Source: a virus. Taken from it: a stretch of DNA of 38,450 nt. The notes under the pieces were generated by a model, which was given only the letters and a program-made list of their open reading frames with translations, had not been told where the DNA came from and did not search any database. Positions 3,983-21,330 of the stretch are shown piece by piece; position 1 is the stretch's first letter, and each line of letters begins with the position of its first letter. A program made the position numbers and the translations under genes. The stretch is from positions 1 through 38,450 of IMG/VR virus record IMGVR_UViG_3300031565_000146; one strand, given 5' to 3'.

Positions 3983-5143
3983 ATGGGTTGGCTGCCTGGC
4001 TATGAACGAGTCGAGATCCTCGGCTGTACCGGACCTGGGACCTACGTCGGCGGAACGCCGTGGCGCTGGGTCGGACACACCACCGAGTCGAACCCTGGCT
4101 CGATCAACGGCGTGATCTCCTTGTTCCAGGGTCGTCCGTGCTCCACCCCGCACTTCTGCATCGACCCGGCCAACGGGCGCAAGGTGCAGTTCATCCCGAC
4201 GGATTGGTCCTCGGCCGCTCTCAAGAACATGAGCGGCGGTGTCGAGACGAACCGCGCTCATGCCATCCAGACCGAAATCTGCGGCCGTGCCGCGGAGACG
4301 CCGAATTGGCCCGACGAGTGGCTCCGGTTCATCGGCGAGCACATCGCTGACGTGCAGCGTGAACTCAGCGCCCTCAACCTCGACAACCATCCGGCCACCG
4401 TCGGACCCGAGGACGGCTTCATCGCTCGGCCCAACGCTCCCCAGCGTCTCTCCTACGGCGCATGGAACGGCTTCGACGGCGCCTGCTGGCACCAGCACGT
4501 TCCCGAGAACGACCATTGGGATGGCGGCAAGATCAACATGGGCCGCGTCATCGAGCACGCCAAGGCGAGCCTCGGTGGTGCTCCCCCAACGCCCCCTCCT
4601 CCCGGTCCTCCCCCCGCTCCTCCTTCTGCCCGCGTGCTCGGCAAGGGCGACATCGGTCAGGACGTTCACGATTGGCAGGCGCGCCTCGCTGGGCGTGGCT
4701 ACTGGATCGCAGCGGACGGCGACTTCGGCTCACTGACCGACGGGATCACCCGTTGGTTCCAGCAGGGTCGCGGCCTCTTGGTTGACGGCCTCGTCGGCCC
4801 AGCAACTCTCAGTTCGATGAGCGCCGCCGAGCGCGAGAACTGGAAGCCCAGCCTCGGAGGCTCCGGCGGTGGCCCCGCTCCCACCCCGACGCCACGTCCG
4901 CCAGCGGCTCCGGCTTGGCCCGGTCGCTACCTGATGGTGCAGTCGCCCATCATGAACGGCGCCGACGTTCGTCAGTGGCAGCAGCAGATGAAGAACCGCG
5001 GCTGGCCCATCGACGTGGATGGCTACTTCGGCGAGCAGAGCCGAGGCGTGTGCCTCAAGTTCCAGCAGGAGAAGCGTCTGGCTGTTGACGGCATCGTCGG
5101 CCCCACGACGTGGACCAAGGCTTGGACGGCGCAGGTCACTTGA
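3983..5143 (+). CDS. Endolysin: N-acetylmuramoyl-L-alanine amidase with two peptidoglycan-binding domains
   Basis: This 386-residue protein would cut the amide bond between N-acetylmuramic acid and L-alanine of host peptidoglycan at the end of infection. The amidase-2/PGRP domain covers about residues 1-190. Zinc ligands are likely His32 in GHTTES and a histidine in the late block CWHQHVPENDHWD, whose final acidic residue completes the site. A proline-rich linker (about 195-215) leads to a first PG_binding_1 repeat (GKGDIGQDVHDWQARLAGRGY, ending VDGLVGPATL). A second linker rich in P/G/T leads to a second repeat (NGADVRQWQQQMKNRGW, ending VDGIVGPTTW). There is no signal peptide, so release depends on a holin; the candidate is 15 kb away on the other strand. 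The gene has its own promoter and a strong terminator 3', so it is a single-gene unit. Confidence 0.93.
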   Translation: MGWLPGYERVEILGCTGPGTYVGGTPWRWVGHTTESNPGSINGVISLFQGRPCSTPHFCIDPANGRKVQFIPTDWSSAALKNMSGGVETNRAHAIQTEICGRAAETPNWPDEWLRFIGEHIADVQRELSALNLDNHPATVGPEDGFIARPNAPQRLSYGAWNGFDGACWHQHVPENDHWDGGKINMGRVIEHAKASLGGAPPTPPPPGPPPAPPSARVLGKGDIGQDVHDWQARLAGRGYWIAADGDFGSLTDGITRWFQQGRGLLVDGLVGPATLSSMSAAERENWKPSLGGSGGGPAPTPTPRPPAAPAWPGRYLMVQSPIMNGADVRQWQQQMKNRGWPIDVDGYFGEQSRGVCLKFQQEKRLAVDGIVGPTTWTKAWTAQVT

Positions 5144-12302: not shown

Positions 12303-12325
12303 ATGTTACGGCACAGGCATGACAC
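12303..12325 (-). promoter_or_regulatory. GTCAC-box promoter P5 (leaderless)
   Basis: On the - strand: GTGTCAT (12325-12319), ten bases, TAACAT (12308-12303), six bases, ATG 12296. Its first G is also the last base of the ParB stop TAG, as in P1. Confidence 0.7.
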
Positions 12326-13119
12326 TAGAGCCAGCGTTCGGCCCCTTGGGCCACAGCGGGTTCCACCGAGTCCTCATCGACCCCGAGTTCGATGGCGGCA
12401 GCGATACCCGCGAGAGCGAGGTCGCCGGAGTGCTGCTTGAGCCATCCCTTGATGAACCGCTCGTAGGTTGGACGCGGGACCTTGGCGCGCAACTCGCCGA
12501 AGCGGAAGATCACGAACTCGACCGCCTCGATGCCAACAGTGTCGGTGGTGGGGGCCGGGGTTGAAGAATTGCTGGCCCCCTCGATGAGATCGTCGGACTC
12601 GTCCTCGATGTCGTCGTAGTCCTCGTCGGGAGGCATGATTCGGTCGAGCACCGCAGCAGTGAGACCGACACCTTCGCCCGAGTCCTCCTCGGGGATCTCG
12701 AAGTCGATGGCAGCGGCCAGAAGGTCGTCCACTTCGTCGGAGGTGTAGCCGGTGCCTTCGAGAAGCGCGTCGCTCTCGTCCAAGATGTCGGAAAGCAGGT
12801 CGGCCAGGAGTCGCTCGTCGTAGGTGCCGCGATCAGCGATCTTGTTGGCGGCGAGCAAGATGCGCTTCGCCTGGGTGTTGTCCACGTCGAGGTACACGAC
12901 ATCGATCTCGCCCCAGCCGAGTTCGCAGGCTGCTCGGTAGGTGTGGTTGCCCGAGATGATGTAGCCGGTGGACTGCTGCACCACGATCGGGGCGAACTGC
13001 TGGTTCTCGACCAGCGATTCCATGATGGCGGCCACGTCCCCGATGCGGGGGTTGCCGGGGAATGGCTCGATCAGGTCAACGCTGACCCTGGTGATGCGAT
13101 CAAGGAGTGAATCGGTCAT
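12325..13119 (-). CDS. ParB-like nuclease/DNA-binding domain protein 1
   Basis: This 264-residue protein has the ParB/Srx domain in its first half. It contains VDLIEPFPGNPRIGDVAAIMESL, IVVQQSTGYIISGNHTYRAACELGW and a following KIADRGTYDERLLADLL. The GNHTxRA box takes the place of the GERRxRA loop of partition ParB proteins, which holds a nucleotide. An acidic linker (EEDSGEG..DEDYDDIEDESDD) leads to a C-terminal block VEFVIFRFGELRAKVPRPTYERF seen in phage ParB-methylase clusters. Its ATG at 13119 overlaps the methyltransferase stop (ATGA). It probably acts with the methyltransferase in DNA modification rather than in segregation. It is a paralogue of the ParB gene at 14680-15438. Confidence 0.82.
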   Translation of the reverse strand: MTDSLLDRITRVSVDLIEPFPGNPRIGDVAAIMESLVENQQFAPIVVQQSTGYIISGNHTYRAACELGWGEIDVVYLDVDNTQAKRILLAANKIADRGTYDERLLADLLSDILDESDALLEGTGYTSDEVDDLLAAAIDFEIPEEDSGEGVGLTAAVLDRIMPPDEDYDDIEDESDDLIEGASNSSTPAPTTDTVGIEAVEFVIFRFGELRAKVPRPTYERFIKGWLKQHSGDLALAGIAAAIELGVDEDSVEPAVAQGAERWL

Positions 13120-14687
13120 TCGCCGGGTCCTTCTGATGAGTCCATCGCCATCACAGGGCCGCAAGCCCGAGTCGCCTTGCGCGGGTCGCCCTTCACAAAG
13201 ACGAGGAGGTTCTGGTGGGTCTTGCCCAACTTGCGCGTGGCGTCGAACTGACGCCCGGCGCGCAGCGGGAGGCTGGCGGCGTGAGTCACCAACACCGCTT
13301 CGTTGTAGAGGCGCAGCCCGGCTGCCTCCATGATCTTCACCGTGTCGGCGGGGAAGCCGTAGTAGAAGCCCTTCTTGTCACGGAAGTCCCCGACTACGAC
13401 CACGGCGAAGCGGTCGTCGGCGAGGCGCTTGGCTGAGTTGGCCATGATCTTGCCGAACGCCTCGATGAAGTCCGGGTACTCCATGGTGGAGAGATCGCGA
13501 GGATCGTCGGAGTAGACCTCCAAGTCGCCATAGGGCGGGCAGGTGAAGATCATGTCGGCCGTCTCGTCGGTGAGGTCCATCACGTCCATGCCGTCGCCCT
13601 CGATCCAGACGGGATCAGGGGCGATCACCGGCACGGCCGAGGGGCGGATGGCGCTGACCCACAAGAGGTCACCTTCACGGAGATAGGGCAGGCACTTCGC
13701 CTCGTAGTACGGGTCCAGCCCCACTCCATCGAGGTCGGTGCGAACGGCGGGGACGTGGTAGTCCGACTCCTCATCGACCAACTCCACCATGTCGCGCCAC
13801 TCCTCAGGTGCCCAGCGATCAAGGCGCTCCTCGGGGACGTGGCCGACACAGATGGCCGTGACCGGGATGTCGATGCCCTGCTCCTTGAGACCCCACAGGA
13901 TGCCAGCGAGGGTCATGCCGGACCCACACGCATTGACGAGGCGCTTGGCGTCCTCGGGGATGTTGACGACCTGAGGCTTGGTGTAGTCCACGGCCTCCTG
14001 AGACTCCATGCCGTAGGGCACCTCGATCCAGCCGCGCTCCTGGGCGTCCTCTCGGGCGCGAGCGATGATGACCGAGTTGTAGCCGTAGTCATGTTGGGTG
14101 ATGGCGGCGCCAGCGGCCCGAGCGGCGAGCAACTCCGGGGTCAGTGGACCGGACGGAACGTGGACGCGACACTTCACGCCCATCTCATACGCGATCTGCG
14201 CGACGAAGTTCACCTGTGGCGACAGGCGGCTACCGGCGGTCACGACTCCGACGCCCTTCTCCTTGGCCTGGGCGATGAAGTGCATGCAGGTACGAACCTT
14301 GGCGCCACGCACCCCGGCGTAGACGTACTTGTCCTCGCGCTTGAGCCAGACGCCGCGGTCCTCCAAGAACTCGACCGGCGTCACGTCGGGCATGGTGGCC
14401 TCAGGCACGTCGGGGATGATCCCCAACCCGTCGGTGAGGAGGCCCTTGGACTGCTGGTAGTTGGCCTCGATCTGATTGGCCCGCACGTCGATGCCGATGT
14501 AGCGGCGCCCCAACTTGGCGGCCACGATGCCGCGCACCGACCCCCCAGCGAAGGGGTCGAGCACGAGGCCCTTGGCTGGACAGAACCAGCGGTAGGCGAT
14601 CTCGCACAGCACGGGGTCGAAGATCGATGTGGCGCCGTCGCCGTAGAGGAGTTCAGAGTCGTTGGACTCGACCTCGGTGTCACTCAT
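13116..14687 (-). CDS. DNA methyltransferase with an inserted PLP-dependent enzyme domain
   Basis: This 523-residue protein combines two enzymes. An N6/N4 methyltransferase starts the chain with SIFDPVLCEIAYRWF, motif I VLDPFAGGS (42-50) and IGIDV (64-68). It resumes at residues about 360-515 with motif IV TCPPY (382-386), LEVYSDDPRDL, the DFRDKKGFYYGFP block and the end GKTHQNLLVFVKGD. Between them, residues about 104-345 form a fold-type II PLP enzyme of the ACC deaminase / D-cysteine desulfhydrase kind. That part has VWLKREDKY, the likely Schiff-base Lys130 in GAKVR, a SPQVNFVA substrate-binding loop (156-163), the phosphate loop GSGMTLAG (255-262) and LDPYYEAKCLPYLREGD near the end. The insertion lies where group alpha enzymes carry the target recognition domain. 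Start ATG 14687 overlaps ParB2 by 8 nt. The catalytic lysine, glycine loop and TCPPY motif all look intact, so both activities may be live. Substrate and product are unknown. Confidence 0.85.
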   Translation of the reverse strand: MSDTEVESNDSELLYGDGATSIFDPVLCEIAYRWFCPAKGLVLDPFAGGSVRGIVAAKLGRRYIGIDVRANQIEANYQQSKGLLTDGLGIIPDVPEATMPDVTPVEFLEDRGVWLKREDKYVYAGVRGAKVRTCMHFIAQAKEKGVGVVTAGSRLSPQVNFVAQIAYEMGVKCRVHVPSGPLTPELLAARAAGAAITQHDYGYNSVIIARAREDAQERGWIEVPYGMESQEAVDYTKPQVVNIPEDAKRLVNACGSGMTLAGILWGLKEQGIDIPVTAICVGHVPEERLDRWAPEEWRDMVELVDEESDYHVPAVRTDLDGVGLDPYYEAKCLPYLREGDLLWVSAIRPSAVPVIAPDPVWIEGDGMDVMDLTDETADMIFTCPPYGDLEVYSDDPRDLSTMEYPDFIEAFGKIMANSAKRLADDRFAVVVVGDFRDKKGFYYGFPADTVKIMEAAGLRLYNEAVLVTHAASLPLRAGRQFDATRKLGKTHQNLLVFVKGDPRKATRACGPVMAMDSSEGPGE

Positions 14688-15438
14688 CTTCGGCTCGCTT
14701 CCTCTCCTCGGCGGCGCCCTCGGCGACGAAGGGACGGTCAGGGTTGTGGTGACGCTGGGGAGCGGCGAGGTACCACGTCCGGGGCTTGTCATCGCGCCCC
14801 AACTCGCCTTCGAGGCCAAGGCCGATCCACGCGTTCTTGCGGTCCTGCCACCAACCCTCGCGAGCGTTGAGGACGGTGAACGGCGACACCATGAAGCGGT
14901 CCATCAGCGACAAGGTGGCTCGCCTGGGAGCGTCCTCCTTGCGCTTGAGGTCCGTCAAGGGGTTCTCCCCAGGACCCTCGTCGTCCTCGGAGCCTGCCTC
15001 CTCCAACTCGGTTGGAGCGGCCGTCTCACCCAAGAGGATTTCGAGATCCTCCATCGTGTAGGACGCGTCCTCAAGGAGCGCCTCGTCGGCTTCGAGCACG
15101 TCGGCGATCATCGCCGCCAGGGCGTCGTCGTCGTAGGTGCCCAACTCGGCGGTGCGGTTGTCAGCGAGGGCGAACGCCTTGGCGGTGGCCTCATCGTCGT
15201 CGGTCCACAACACGGCGATTTCGGTCCACCCCAACCGGCGCGCCGCCTGCAGGGTGTGGTTGCCCGCGATGACCTGCTTGCTGGACCGCTGGACGATGAT
15301 CGGCTTGCGTTGGCCGAAGCGGTTGAGAGACTTGGCCACGGCGTCGATGTCGCCCACGCGTGGGTTGCCCTCAAGCAACTGCGGCTCGCCGATCGGGGCG
15401 GCGAGGGGGAGGAGGGAGTCGGGGATCTTGTGACTCAC
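14680..15438 (-). CDS. ParB-like nuclease/DNA-binding domain protein 2
   Basis: This 252-residue protein starts at GTG 15438, overlapping the previous stop (GTGA). The ParB/Srx domain is at the N-terminus: QLLEGNPRVGDIDAVAKSL, then IIVQRSSKQVIAGNHTLQAARRLGW, then ADNRTAELGTYDDDALAAM. Its core is a close paralogue of ParB1. The C-terminal third carries a block MVSPFTVLNAREGWWQDRKN followed by AWIGLGLEGELGR. I recognise this as the conserved segment that sits just upstream of the methyltransferase fold in actinophage DNA methylases. So this gene probably holds the first part of the modification machine and the next gene the catalytic part. An 8-nt overlap couples them. The long upstream reading-frame extension belongs to another gene. 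Confidence 0.82.
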   Translation of the reverse strand: MSHKIPDSLLPLAAPIGEPQLLEGNPRVGDIDAVAKSLNRFGQRKPIIVQRSSKQVIAGNHTLQAARRLGWTEIAVLWTDDDEATAKAFALADNRTAELGTYDDDALAAMIADVLEADEALLEDASYTMEDLEILLGETAAPTELEEAGSEDDEGPGENPLTDLKRKEDAPRRATLSLMDRFMVSPFTVLNAREGWWQDRKNAWIGLGLEGELGRDDKPRTWYLAAPQRHHNPDRPFVAEGAAEERKRAEDE

Positions 15439-15896
15439 TGCTTGTTCCACTTCTTGAACTCGCCGGGGGGCCTGCCCGCCGCCTCCTGCTGCAGCCTGGT
15501 CACCGGGTCCACTTCCGGTTCTGCTTCCGGTTCCGGCGGATTGAACCCGAGGGGCGGCACCTCGGTCATCGGAGAGGTCACGAGGTCCCACCCAGCGCCC
15601 ACAGGAGGCGCCTCTGAGGCGTCCTCGGTGTCCTGGGACCCGGATTGCGCCACACGGCCATTCAGGGCGTCTGAGAGGCCCCGGCTCACATCACGGAACT
15701 CGGCAGCAGAACGCTCTGGGGTGGGACTGAGACTGCCGTTGCCAGAGAGGTCGATGTCGGTCAATTCACCGACATCAGGGTCCAGGCCCTCCTGCTTCGC
15801 CACGAGGGCGCGATTGCGTTCTCCGAGAGCGATGGCGCCCACCATGAAGGCCAGAAGCCCGAGCACGATGAACCCGAGGACGATGGCAACCAACAT
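15435..15896 (-). CDS. Membrane-anchored protein of unknown function (153 aa)
   Basis: The N-terminus is one hydrophobic helix (MLVAIVLGFIVLGLLAFMVG, then AIALGERNRALVAKQEGL) that should place the protein in the membrane with a soluble, proline- and acid-rich tail of about 125 residues (SLSPTPERSAAEFRDVSRGL; PPEPEAEPEVDP). The tail has no recognised fold. Two ATG codons are possible: 15905 and 15896. I chose 15896 because a TACGAT hexamer lies seven bases before it, which fits a leaderless start, whereas 15905 has no ribosome binding site. The 3' end overlaps ParB2 as GTGA, so the membrane protein leads the ParB-methyltransferase operon. A link between DNA modification and the membrane is speculative. 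Confidence 0.7.
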   Translation of the reverse strand: MLVAIVLGFIVLGLLAFMVGAIALGERNRALVAKQEGLDPDVGELTDIDLSGNGSLSPTPERSAAEFRDVSRGLSDALNGRVAQSGSQDTEDASEAPPVGAGWDLVTSPMTEVPPLGFNPPEPEAEPEVDPVTRLQQEAAGRPPGEFKKWNKQ

Positions 15897-19590: not shown

Positions 19591-19785
19591 CTAGATGGCT
19601 ACAAGCCAGCCAGCATCGACCATGGGAGGGACTCCCGTTCCGGCGACCCAGAACTCGGAGTTGGCCTTGAGGCCCATGACCGTCACGGTGGCGCGCACGT
19701 TGATCGCAGGCTCACCGTCAGGCTCGCCGAGGATCAGAGGGCTGGACTGACTGTAGGTCTTGATCTTGTTGCAGCCACAGCCCAT
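19591..19785 (-). CDS. Small N-terminal cysteine motif protein (64 aa)
   Basis: This 64-residue protein has an N-terminal motif MGCGCNKIKTYSQSS followed by a beta-rich, hydrophobic segment (NVRATVTVMGLKANSEFWVA) and PPMVDAGWLVAI. Proteins starting M(C/G)xCNK are frequent in actinophage genomes; function unknown. Its start overlaps the preceding stop by one base (TGATG). It is the last gene of the tail/lysis operon and lies just upstream of the promoter P9 region. Confidence 0.65.
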   Translation of the reverse strand: MGCGCNKIKTYSQSSPLILGEPDGEPAINVRATVTVMGLKANSEFWVAGTGVPPMVDAGWLVAI

Positions 19786-20224: not shown

Positions 20225-20524
20225 TCAGGCTGGCTTGTTGTAGGTCGGCTGCTTGCGGCTGCCGAGCATGAAGCCAGCGTTGGGCCAACGCTGCTCAAGG
20301 ACGCGCGCCACGACGTACCAGGCCGAACCGACCACGGTCGTAGCGGCTGCAGTCACCTGGCTCTCATCGATGTCGAAGCCGTACTGAGCAGCCTTGGTGA
20401 CCGCCCAGCCAGCGAAGAAGGGCACCACGGTGCGGACCACTGCCGCTCCGAAGTCCTGGGGGAAGGCGCCGCCTGCGCCGTCCACGCCGGTCGCCGCGGG
20501 TTGGTTTGCACTTGGGTCAGTCAT
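20225..20524 (-). CDS. Holin-like membrane protein (99 aa)
   Basis: This 99-residue protein has an alanine-rich N-terminal stretch and two predicted membrane segments: AAVVRTVVPFFAGWAVTKAA (about residues 27-46) and VTAAATTVVGSAWYVVARVL (about 57-76). A polar, basic C-terminus follows (GSRKQPTYNKPA). Its size, two-helix topology and cytoplasmic-type tail fit a class II holin. Actinophage membrane proteins with the ending LLGSxKQPxY are common. It would let the amidase reach the cell wall. Its ATG overlaps the PAS protein stop (ATGA), so the two are made together. Membrane location is predicted from sequence only. Confidence 0.68.
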   Translation of the reverse strand: MTDPSANQPAATGVDGAGGAFPQDFGAAVVRTVVPFFAGWAVTKAAQYGFDIDESQVTAAATTVVGSAWYVVARVLEQRWPNAGFMLGSRKQPTYNKPA

Positions 20525-21330
20525 GAGTCCTCCACTGCTCCTGCAGTTTCGATCACACCAAGGCTAGCCGATGGGGTGATGGGGTCAATGGTACCCACCC
20601 AACCGACGACGTTCCTGTGGGCATCATGAAGGGGGGCGGCCGAACCGCGCACCTCAACTTCCCTGCCGGTCACCACGTTTCGGAACCGATAGATCGCCGT
20701 GAACTCAGCAGATTCCTCCACGGCCACGGCCCAAGTCTTGAACACACGGTCACGATCATTGGGGTGCAGGGAGGCAGCCCACCCTTCTCCCAGGGCCTCC
20801 TCGACGGAGAGGCCCGTCACCTTCGAGTAGGCCGGGTTGATGTAGGTGCACCACCCCTGAGCGTTCGTCTCGAACACCGGAGTTTCGAGTGCTCGGTACA
20901 ACTGCCGGATGCGCTCCTTGGCCCCGATCGCTTCGACCAACACCTCCTCGGCGTACTCCGTCAACTTCTCCATCCGCTGATGAGTGTCGGCGAAGCGGGT
21001 GTCGAGGCAGGAGTGGATGTTCTCCAAGGCTTGCTTGATGTCAAGCCGGTCGGCGCTGACCGAGGCCGTCAGCGCTTCTTGACCGTCGTTGAGAGCGTCA
21101 ACCCGGTCGCGCAGCGACGAGCCACCATTGTTCTGCGACACCTTGGCATCGACTACCCCACCAACGACCTTCTCGCTCCACTCGGTGACCGGCTTGCCGA
21201 CGAGTTGACCCCAGAGCCACCTGGCGGGCCTGGTGCGCGAGATCACCCCGAGCGCGGTGAGAACACCGGCCGTCCAGATGGTGGCTTCACCCCAGGTGTG
21301 CCAGAGAGAATGATCGGCCAGGATCAACAC
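20521..21330 (-). CDS. Membrane-anchored PAS-domain protein
   Basis: This 269-residue protein has one N-terminal membrane segment (ATIWTAGVLTALGVIS, residues about 16-31). A basic stop-transfer (RTRPARWLW) and a helical linker with the phage-type NGGSSLRDRVDAL block follow. The C-terminal part (about residues 145-255) is a complete PAS plus PAC domain: ETPVFETNAQGWCTYINPAY, TGLSVEEALGEGW, HPNDRDRVF, IYRFRNVVTGREVEVRGSAA, VVGWVGTIDPIT. PAS domains sense redox state, ligands or light; no cofactor residue is certain here. No kinase or output domain follows. Start is GTG 21330. The 3' end overlaps the holin-like gene, so a role in lysis control is the main hypothesis. Confidence 0.82.
   Translation of the reverse strand: MLILADHSLWHTWGEATIWTAGVLTALGVISRTRPARWLWGQLVGKPVTEWSEKVVGGVVDAKVSQNNGGSSLRDRVDALNDGQEALTASVSADRLDIKQALENIHSCLDTRFADTHQRMEKLTEYAEEVLVEAIGAKERIRQLYRALETPVFETNAQGWCTYINPAYSKVTGLSVEEALGEGWAASLHPNDRDRVFKTWAVAVEESAEFTAIYRFRNVVTGREVEVRGSAAPLHDAHRNVVGWVGTIDPITPSASLGVIETAGAVEDS

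Follow-up and report, generated by a model that had tools for sequence, protein, structure and literature searches.

What does a PAS domain do in a virus, encoded beside a holin-like gene? The locus lies in a window that spans the full 38,450 bases of one IMG/VR record, a contig without host assignment, which leaves the "actinophage" label given to it in the first-pass annotation unproven. A PAS protein of 269 aa with a GTG start (20521..21330, minus strand) and a 99-aa two-TM holin-like protein (20225..20524, minus strand) share an ATGA stop/start overlap at 20521..20524. This arrangement, a 269-residue one-TM protein with a PAS domain joined by ATGA to a two-TM gene, had been noted in the first-pass annotation, and it was confirmed by the ORF calls, Pfam and the orthologous loci. 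The window's endolysin (386 aa, 3983..5143, plus strand) matched PHROG endolysin families with a best E of 4.5e-36 and lies about 15 kb from the pair, on the opposite strand. Elsewhere in the window, the ORFs at 12325-13164, 13116-14819 and 14680-15591 (minus strand) comprise a methylase-like ORF flanked by ParB-like ORFs.

Only one TM segment was predicted in the PAS protein, a weak one with a mean hydropathy of 1.11 (about aa 12-30, 21241..21297, minus strand), which falls within a helix at aa 8-32 of the AlphaFold2 model. Basic residues follow it, and from these an N-out/C-in topology is predicted. The motif NGGSSLRD at aa 68-75 (21106..21129, minus strand) is conserved in the family and present also in short PAS-less phage proteins. 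It runs into a single long helix modeled at aa 73-147 (20890..21114, minus strand), which would lead through the cytoplasm from the membrane part to the PAS domain at aa 148-252 (20575..20889, minus strand). Pfam PAS (PF00989) matched aa 139-251 with an E of 1.7e-15 and a score of 57.5 bits (cut-off 22.6), and AlphaFold2 gave a confident PAS fold over aa 150-250 (pLDDT 95-98). The closest structures to this domain model were LOV/PAS domains (Foldseek probability 1.00; VIA Z ~15 over 104 residues). The Pfam scan of the protein revealed no domain that could act as an output, such as a kinase, GGDEF or HTH domain. A structure search of BFVD with the PAS model also returned weaker matches that included T-type holins, from Proteus phage phiP4-3 (E 0.018) and Serratia phage PS2 (E 0.29).

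Light sensing of the LOV type was excluded, as the photoactive Cys of the NCRFLQ-type motif is absent. The sole Cys in aa 148-252, C161 within GWCTYIN, is off the LOV position in the sequence; it was the only pocket-side candidate residue noted and is present in 18 of the 29 aligned family members. No conserved cofactor-specific residue was found in the PAS domain across this 29-member alignment. Haem, flavin, a small ligand or thiol redox may be the input of the domain.

The 99-aa protein matched the phrog_10742 profile over aa 18-98 with an E of 5.1e-13, and it was modeled as a hairpin whose helices span aa 25-49 and aa 54-79, with modest confidence (mean pLDDT 68.9). Against Phage_holin_10 (Pam3 gp28) it scored 18.7 bits, under the Pfam cut-off of 27. 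Members of the same family in actinophages (Hiyaa gp31 and the reading frame after VWB gp52) resemble it in RT-V-P in the first TM segment and Y/R/E around the second, and often stand right after an endolysin. In Hiyaa, the endolysin gene precedes the family gene, as an endolysin-like gene does in VWB, and a hydrolase recognized by Pfam was located one or two places upstream of a two-TM relative in 8 of 10 further contigs, two of these matches being just below the curated cut-off (L206 Amidase_2 and L210 CHAP). A one-TM protein without PAS is encoded upstream of the two-TM relative in L220 and L221. Unlike the window pair, the relatives in cultured phages have no PAS neighbor, and their holin role is putative.

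The same gene pair with the same ATGA junction was present in L002, L013/L198, L017/L199 and L200, giving five loci with the window. These loci stem from three metagenomes and have similar flanking genes; the PAS protein of the window is 75% identical to that of L200. The dN/dS of the PAS gene was about 0.11-0.37 for whole-gene pairs with unsaturated synonymous sites, and purifying selection on the PAS sequence was about equal in strength to that on the rest of the protein. The helix at aa 73-147 was the best-conserved region among the window, L013, L017 and L200. Because orthologs retain the same junction and dN/dS is low, the pair is not a chance arrangement of ORFs. Downstream of the pair, a tiny conserved gene whose product carries MGCGCNK (19591-19785, minus strand) is found again in L017 and L200, and L002 has it in two similar forms.

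DNA-pattern scans of viral contigs yielded 27 distinct PAS-family members at 80% identity, counting the window. The stand-alone plan of TM, N[GH]GSSLRD, coil and PAS is common to the 26 others, all proteins of uncultured phages. A PAS-only DNA pattern found 36 stretches in viral contigs, and nearly all encode stand-alone proteins with an N-terminal TM. Within the motif, aa 68 is N in 28, aa 70 is G in 25 and aa 75 is D in 27 of the 29 aligned members. G183, W184, H189, D192 and W200 are near-invariant across very distant phages, with W184 and W200 in all 29, a conservation that the search partly demanded, the PAS-only pattern itself requiring these tryptophans. Neither the PAS protein nor a second family member retrieved a homolog from INPHARED, and close-relative scans with single sequences gave no match. 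Uncultured phages are also represented in UniProt by models of similar "PAS domain" proteins of 195-205 aa. In bacteria, 37 loci sharing the PAS domain were found. These sensors (PAS/PAS_3; histidine kinases and diguanylate cyclases) are alike in the PAS fold and the GxGW...HPxDR motif, but they are mostly large and multidomain, and the NGGSS motif occurs in 0 of the 37. Capture of the gene from a host, as suggested earlier, is therefore not supported: bacterial relatives share the PAS domain only, and the phage form is widespread.

The N-terminal part of the protein also exists alone. At least 120 stretches of viral contigs contained the NGGSS pattern; most of those listed encode one-TM proteins of 60-120 aa, and at least 113 ORFs, at least 36 of them distinct, carry no PAS domain. 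Profile alignment of the PAS-family N-terminal parts with the short NGGSS proteins gave a probability of 98.8% (96.8% for the window orthologs only); the short set was selected by motif, and the informative fact is that proteins selected by their PAS domain carry the motif too. Within two genes of the PAS-less proteins were CHAP (four times), Amidase_2 (twice), PG_binding_3 (twice), VanY, Peptidase_M15_4 and one r1t holin. Among control genes five to eight places away, no lysis family was found among the top 25 of 69 families. These neighbors suggest that the TM-NGGSS-coil part of the PAS protein is probably itself a lysis-cassette module.

Genes of the PAS-bearing proteins also occur beside lysis genes. 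In L039, the PAS gene overlaps a SAR-type endolysin gene by 8 nt and spanin-like genes then follow; in L020, the overlap is with the reading frame of a SAR-type endolysin, whose true start is uncertain, and a two-TM gene and a lipoprotein come next. Both endolysins have a Lys-rich cytoplasmic tail. An endolysin gene is located two genes upstream of the PAS gene in L034 and four genes upstream in L015. In L002, a two-TM gene is next to the PAS gene and an endolysin-like gene with a weak PHROG match (E 5e-4) is the fifth downstream, and L041 has a weak o-spanin match downstream. Other members had no lysis gene among the genes inspected, for example L006, L010, L028 and the marine T4-like L007, L024 and L035, in which the PAS gene adjoins ribonucleotide reductase and ATPase genes. 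The PHROG tally of neighbors was too thin to yield an enrichment. The association with lysis genes extends beyond this locus, because it recurs in other phages (directly in L020 and L039, within five genes in L034, L015 and L002) and because the two-TM relatives follow hydrolases. Thus, of the first-pass picture of a sensor next to a holin, the lysis-gene context stood; the PAS protein is probably more than a sensor, its own N-terminal part being a likely lysis-cassette module.

A pair of comparable design was reported by Pollenz et al. in 2026, in which the two-TM LysF1a and the one-TM, N-out/C-in LysF1b are joined by ATGA (PMC13056207). LysF1b is a putative holin; energy poisons trigger its lysis, and ~80% of M. 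smegmatis phages have LysF1b-like proteins (PMC13056207). LysF1b of the mycobacteriophages Girr, NBJ and Che8 (gp35) and the PAS protein resemble each other in one N-terminal TM followed by basic residues, in N-out/C-in topology (predicted for the PAS protein), in a helical cytoplasmic part, in an in-register N-x-x-x-[SN]-[LM]-R-D motif and in the ATGA overlap with a two-TM gene, which the PAS gene has in five loci. The PAS protein differs in the added PAS domain, a longer coil and a gene order reversed relative to LysF1a-LysF1b. Homology is visible only from profile to profile. HHalign of the PAS-family N-terminal module with ten LysF1b/DUF2746 proteins gave 82.7% and a score of 35.6, with an E of 9.6e-6 that is pairwise and not database-wide; column shuffles scored at most 11.7 and unrelated one-TM controls at most 15.3. 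The family minus the window orthologs reached 85.6%, and the window orthologs only 2.8%. Pfam DUF2746 (PF10874) had no match in the window PAS protein, six viral records or Hiyaa. Kinship of the PAS family with LysF1b is suggestive from these profiles, that of the window protein itself is unproven and the Pfam model has no match; hence, we describe the PAS protein as working like LysF1b, not as a member of its class. The two-TM protein was rejected as a LysF1a homolog, since it gave no alignment with Che8 LysF1a, a member of a different family (phrog_443 holin). Che8 gp35 itself (L223:5205-5579) falls in PHROG 404, labeled minor tail protein, which matches LysF1b with an E of 2e-45; this annotation of many mycobacteriophage LysF1b genes is probably wrong. 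T4 holin T is also alike in having one TM and a C-terminal globular regulatory domain, with the topology opposite and the domain outside (PMC13056207).

By analogy with LysF1b, we give an even chance to the PAS protein being a LysF1b-like lysis protein in which a cytoplasmic PAS domain tunes triggering and which acts with the two-TM protein. It would be a one-TM, N-out/C-in membrane protein of the lysis cassette with PAS fused at its cytoplasmic end, and the product of the overlapping gene would be its partner, the counterpart of the LysF1a/LysF1b pairing. Together, the one-TM module and the two-TM protein may form or regulate a membrane lesion. The long helix would connect the membrane part with PAS, as in many sensors, and a ligand, the redox state or the energy state of the dying cell could change oligomerization and so set or sharpen the triggering of lysis. 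This reading is weakened by the many members with no lysis gene among the nearby genes inspected and by the 15 kb that separate the window's pair from its endolysin. More tentatively, the family may be a widespread undescribed class in which a holin-type module carries a cytoplasmic PAS sensor, lysis is timed by an intracellular signal and, in some Gram-negative-type cassettes, the protein gates a SAR endolysin.

PAS domains commonly dimerize, and the domain might serve only dimerization or structure in a lysis protein that assembles a membrane lesion and senses nothing. The existence of the module as a complete protein without PAS and the lack of a conserved cofactor-specific residue in the alignment fit this explanation, which we consider unlikely. 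Purifying selection about as strong on PAS as on the rest argues against it, as does the near-invariance of W184, W200, G183, H189 and D192, which is partly search-imposed and would fit a structural role too. It is likewise improbable that the protein is tethered to the membrane as a sensor or decoy that targets host signaling, for instance by pairing with host PAS kinases, with proximity to lysis genes reflecting late expression. PAS domains do heterodimerize in known systems, and the many members with no lysis gene found nearby, including the marine T4-like ones beside ribonucleotide reductase and ATPase genes, would agree with such a role. However, the PAS gene repeatedly adjoins endolysin and spanin-like genes in unrelated phages, its PAS-less homologs sit in lysis cassettes too and its ATGA coupling to the holin-like gene is conserved. 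Very improbable is a releasin-like protein that frees SAR endolysins from the membrane, with PAS regulating that step: the next gene in L039 and L020 does encode a SAR-type endolysin whose cytoplasmic tail is Lys-rich, and the releasin Mu gp25 (DUF2730), which acts through basic residues of gp22, is alike in one TM, N-out/C-in topology and a lysis-region gene (PMC9239132), but Mu gp25 has no PAS domain and no sequence similarity to the PAS protein (HHalign probability 0.1%), and the window pair is not beside the window's endolysin.

Returning to the LysF1b-like reading, the novelty most likely lies in a PAS-bearing variant of a newly recognized class of one-TM lysis proteins. A search conducted mostly without subscription journals found no relevant literature on PAS-bearing lysis proteins, phage PAS domains or PAS with a holin. 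Accounts of lysis timing usually invoke the accumulation of holin and a collapse of membrane potential, to which T4 adds a signal from outside. A PAS domain within a lysis protein, if true, would be a direct sensor on the inside, and the input that a phage reads before lysis would be testable with the purified domain. For the NGGSS proteins, a common uncharacterized phage module, our results provide a pointer to function and a link to the new LysF1b class. Some phages may thus sense what condition the cell is in before they burst it.
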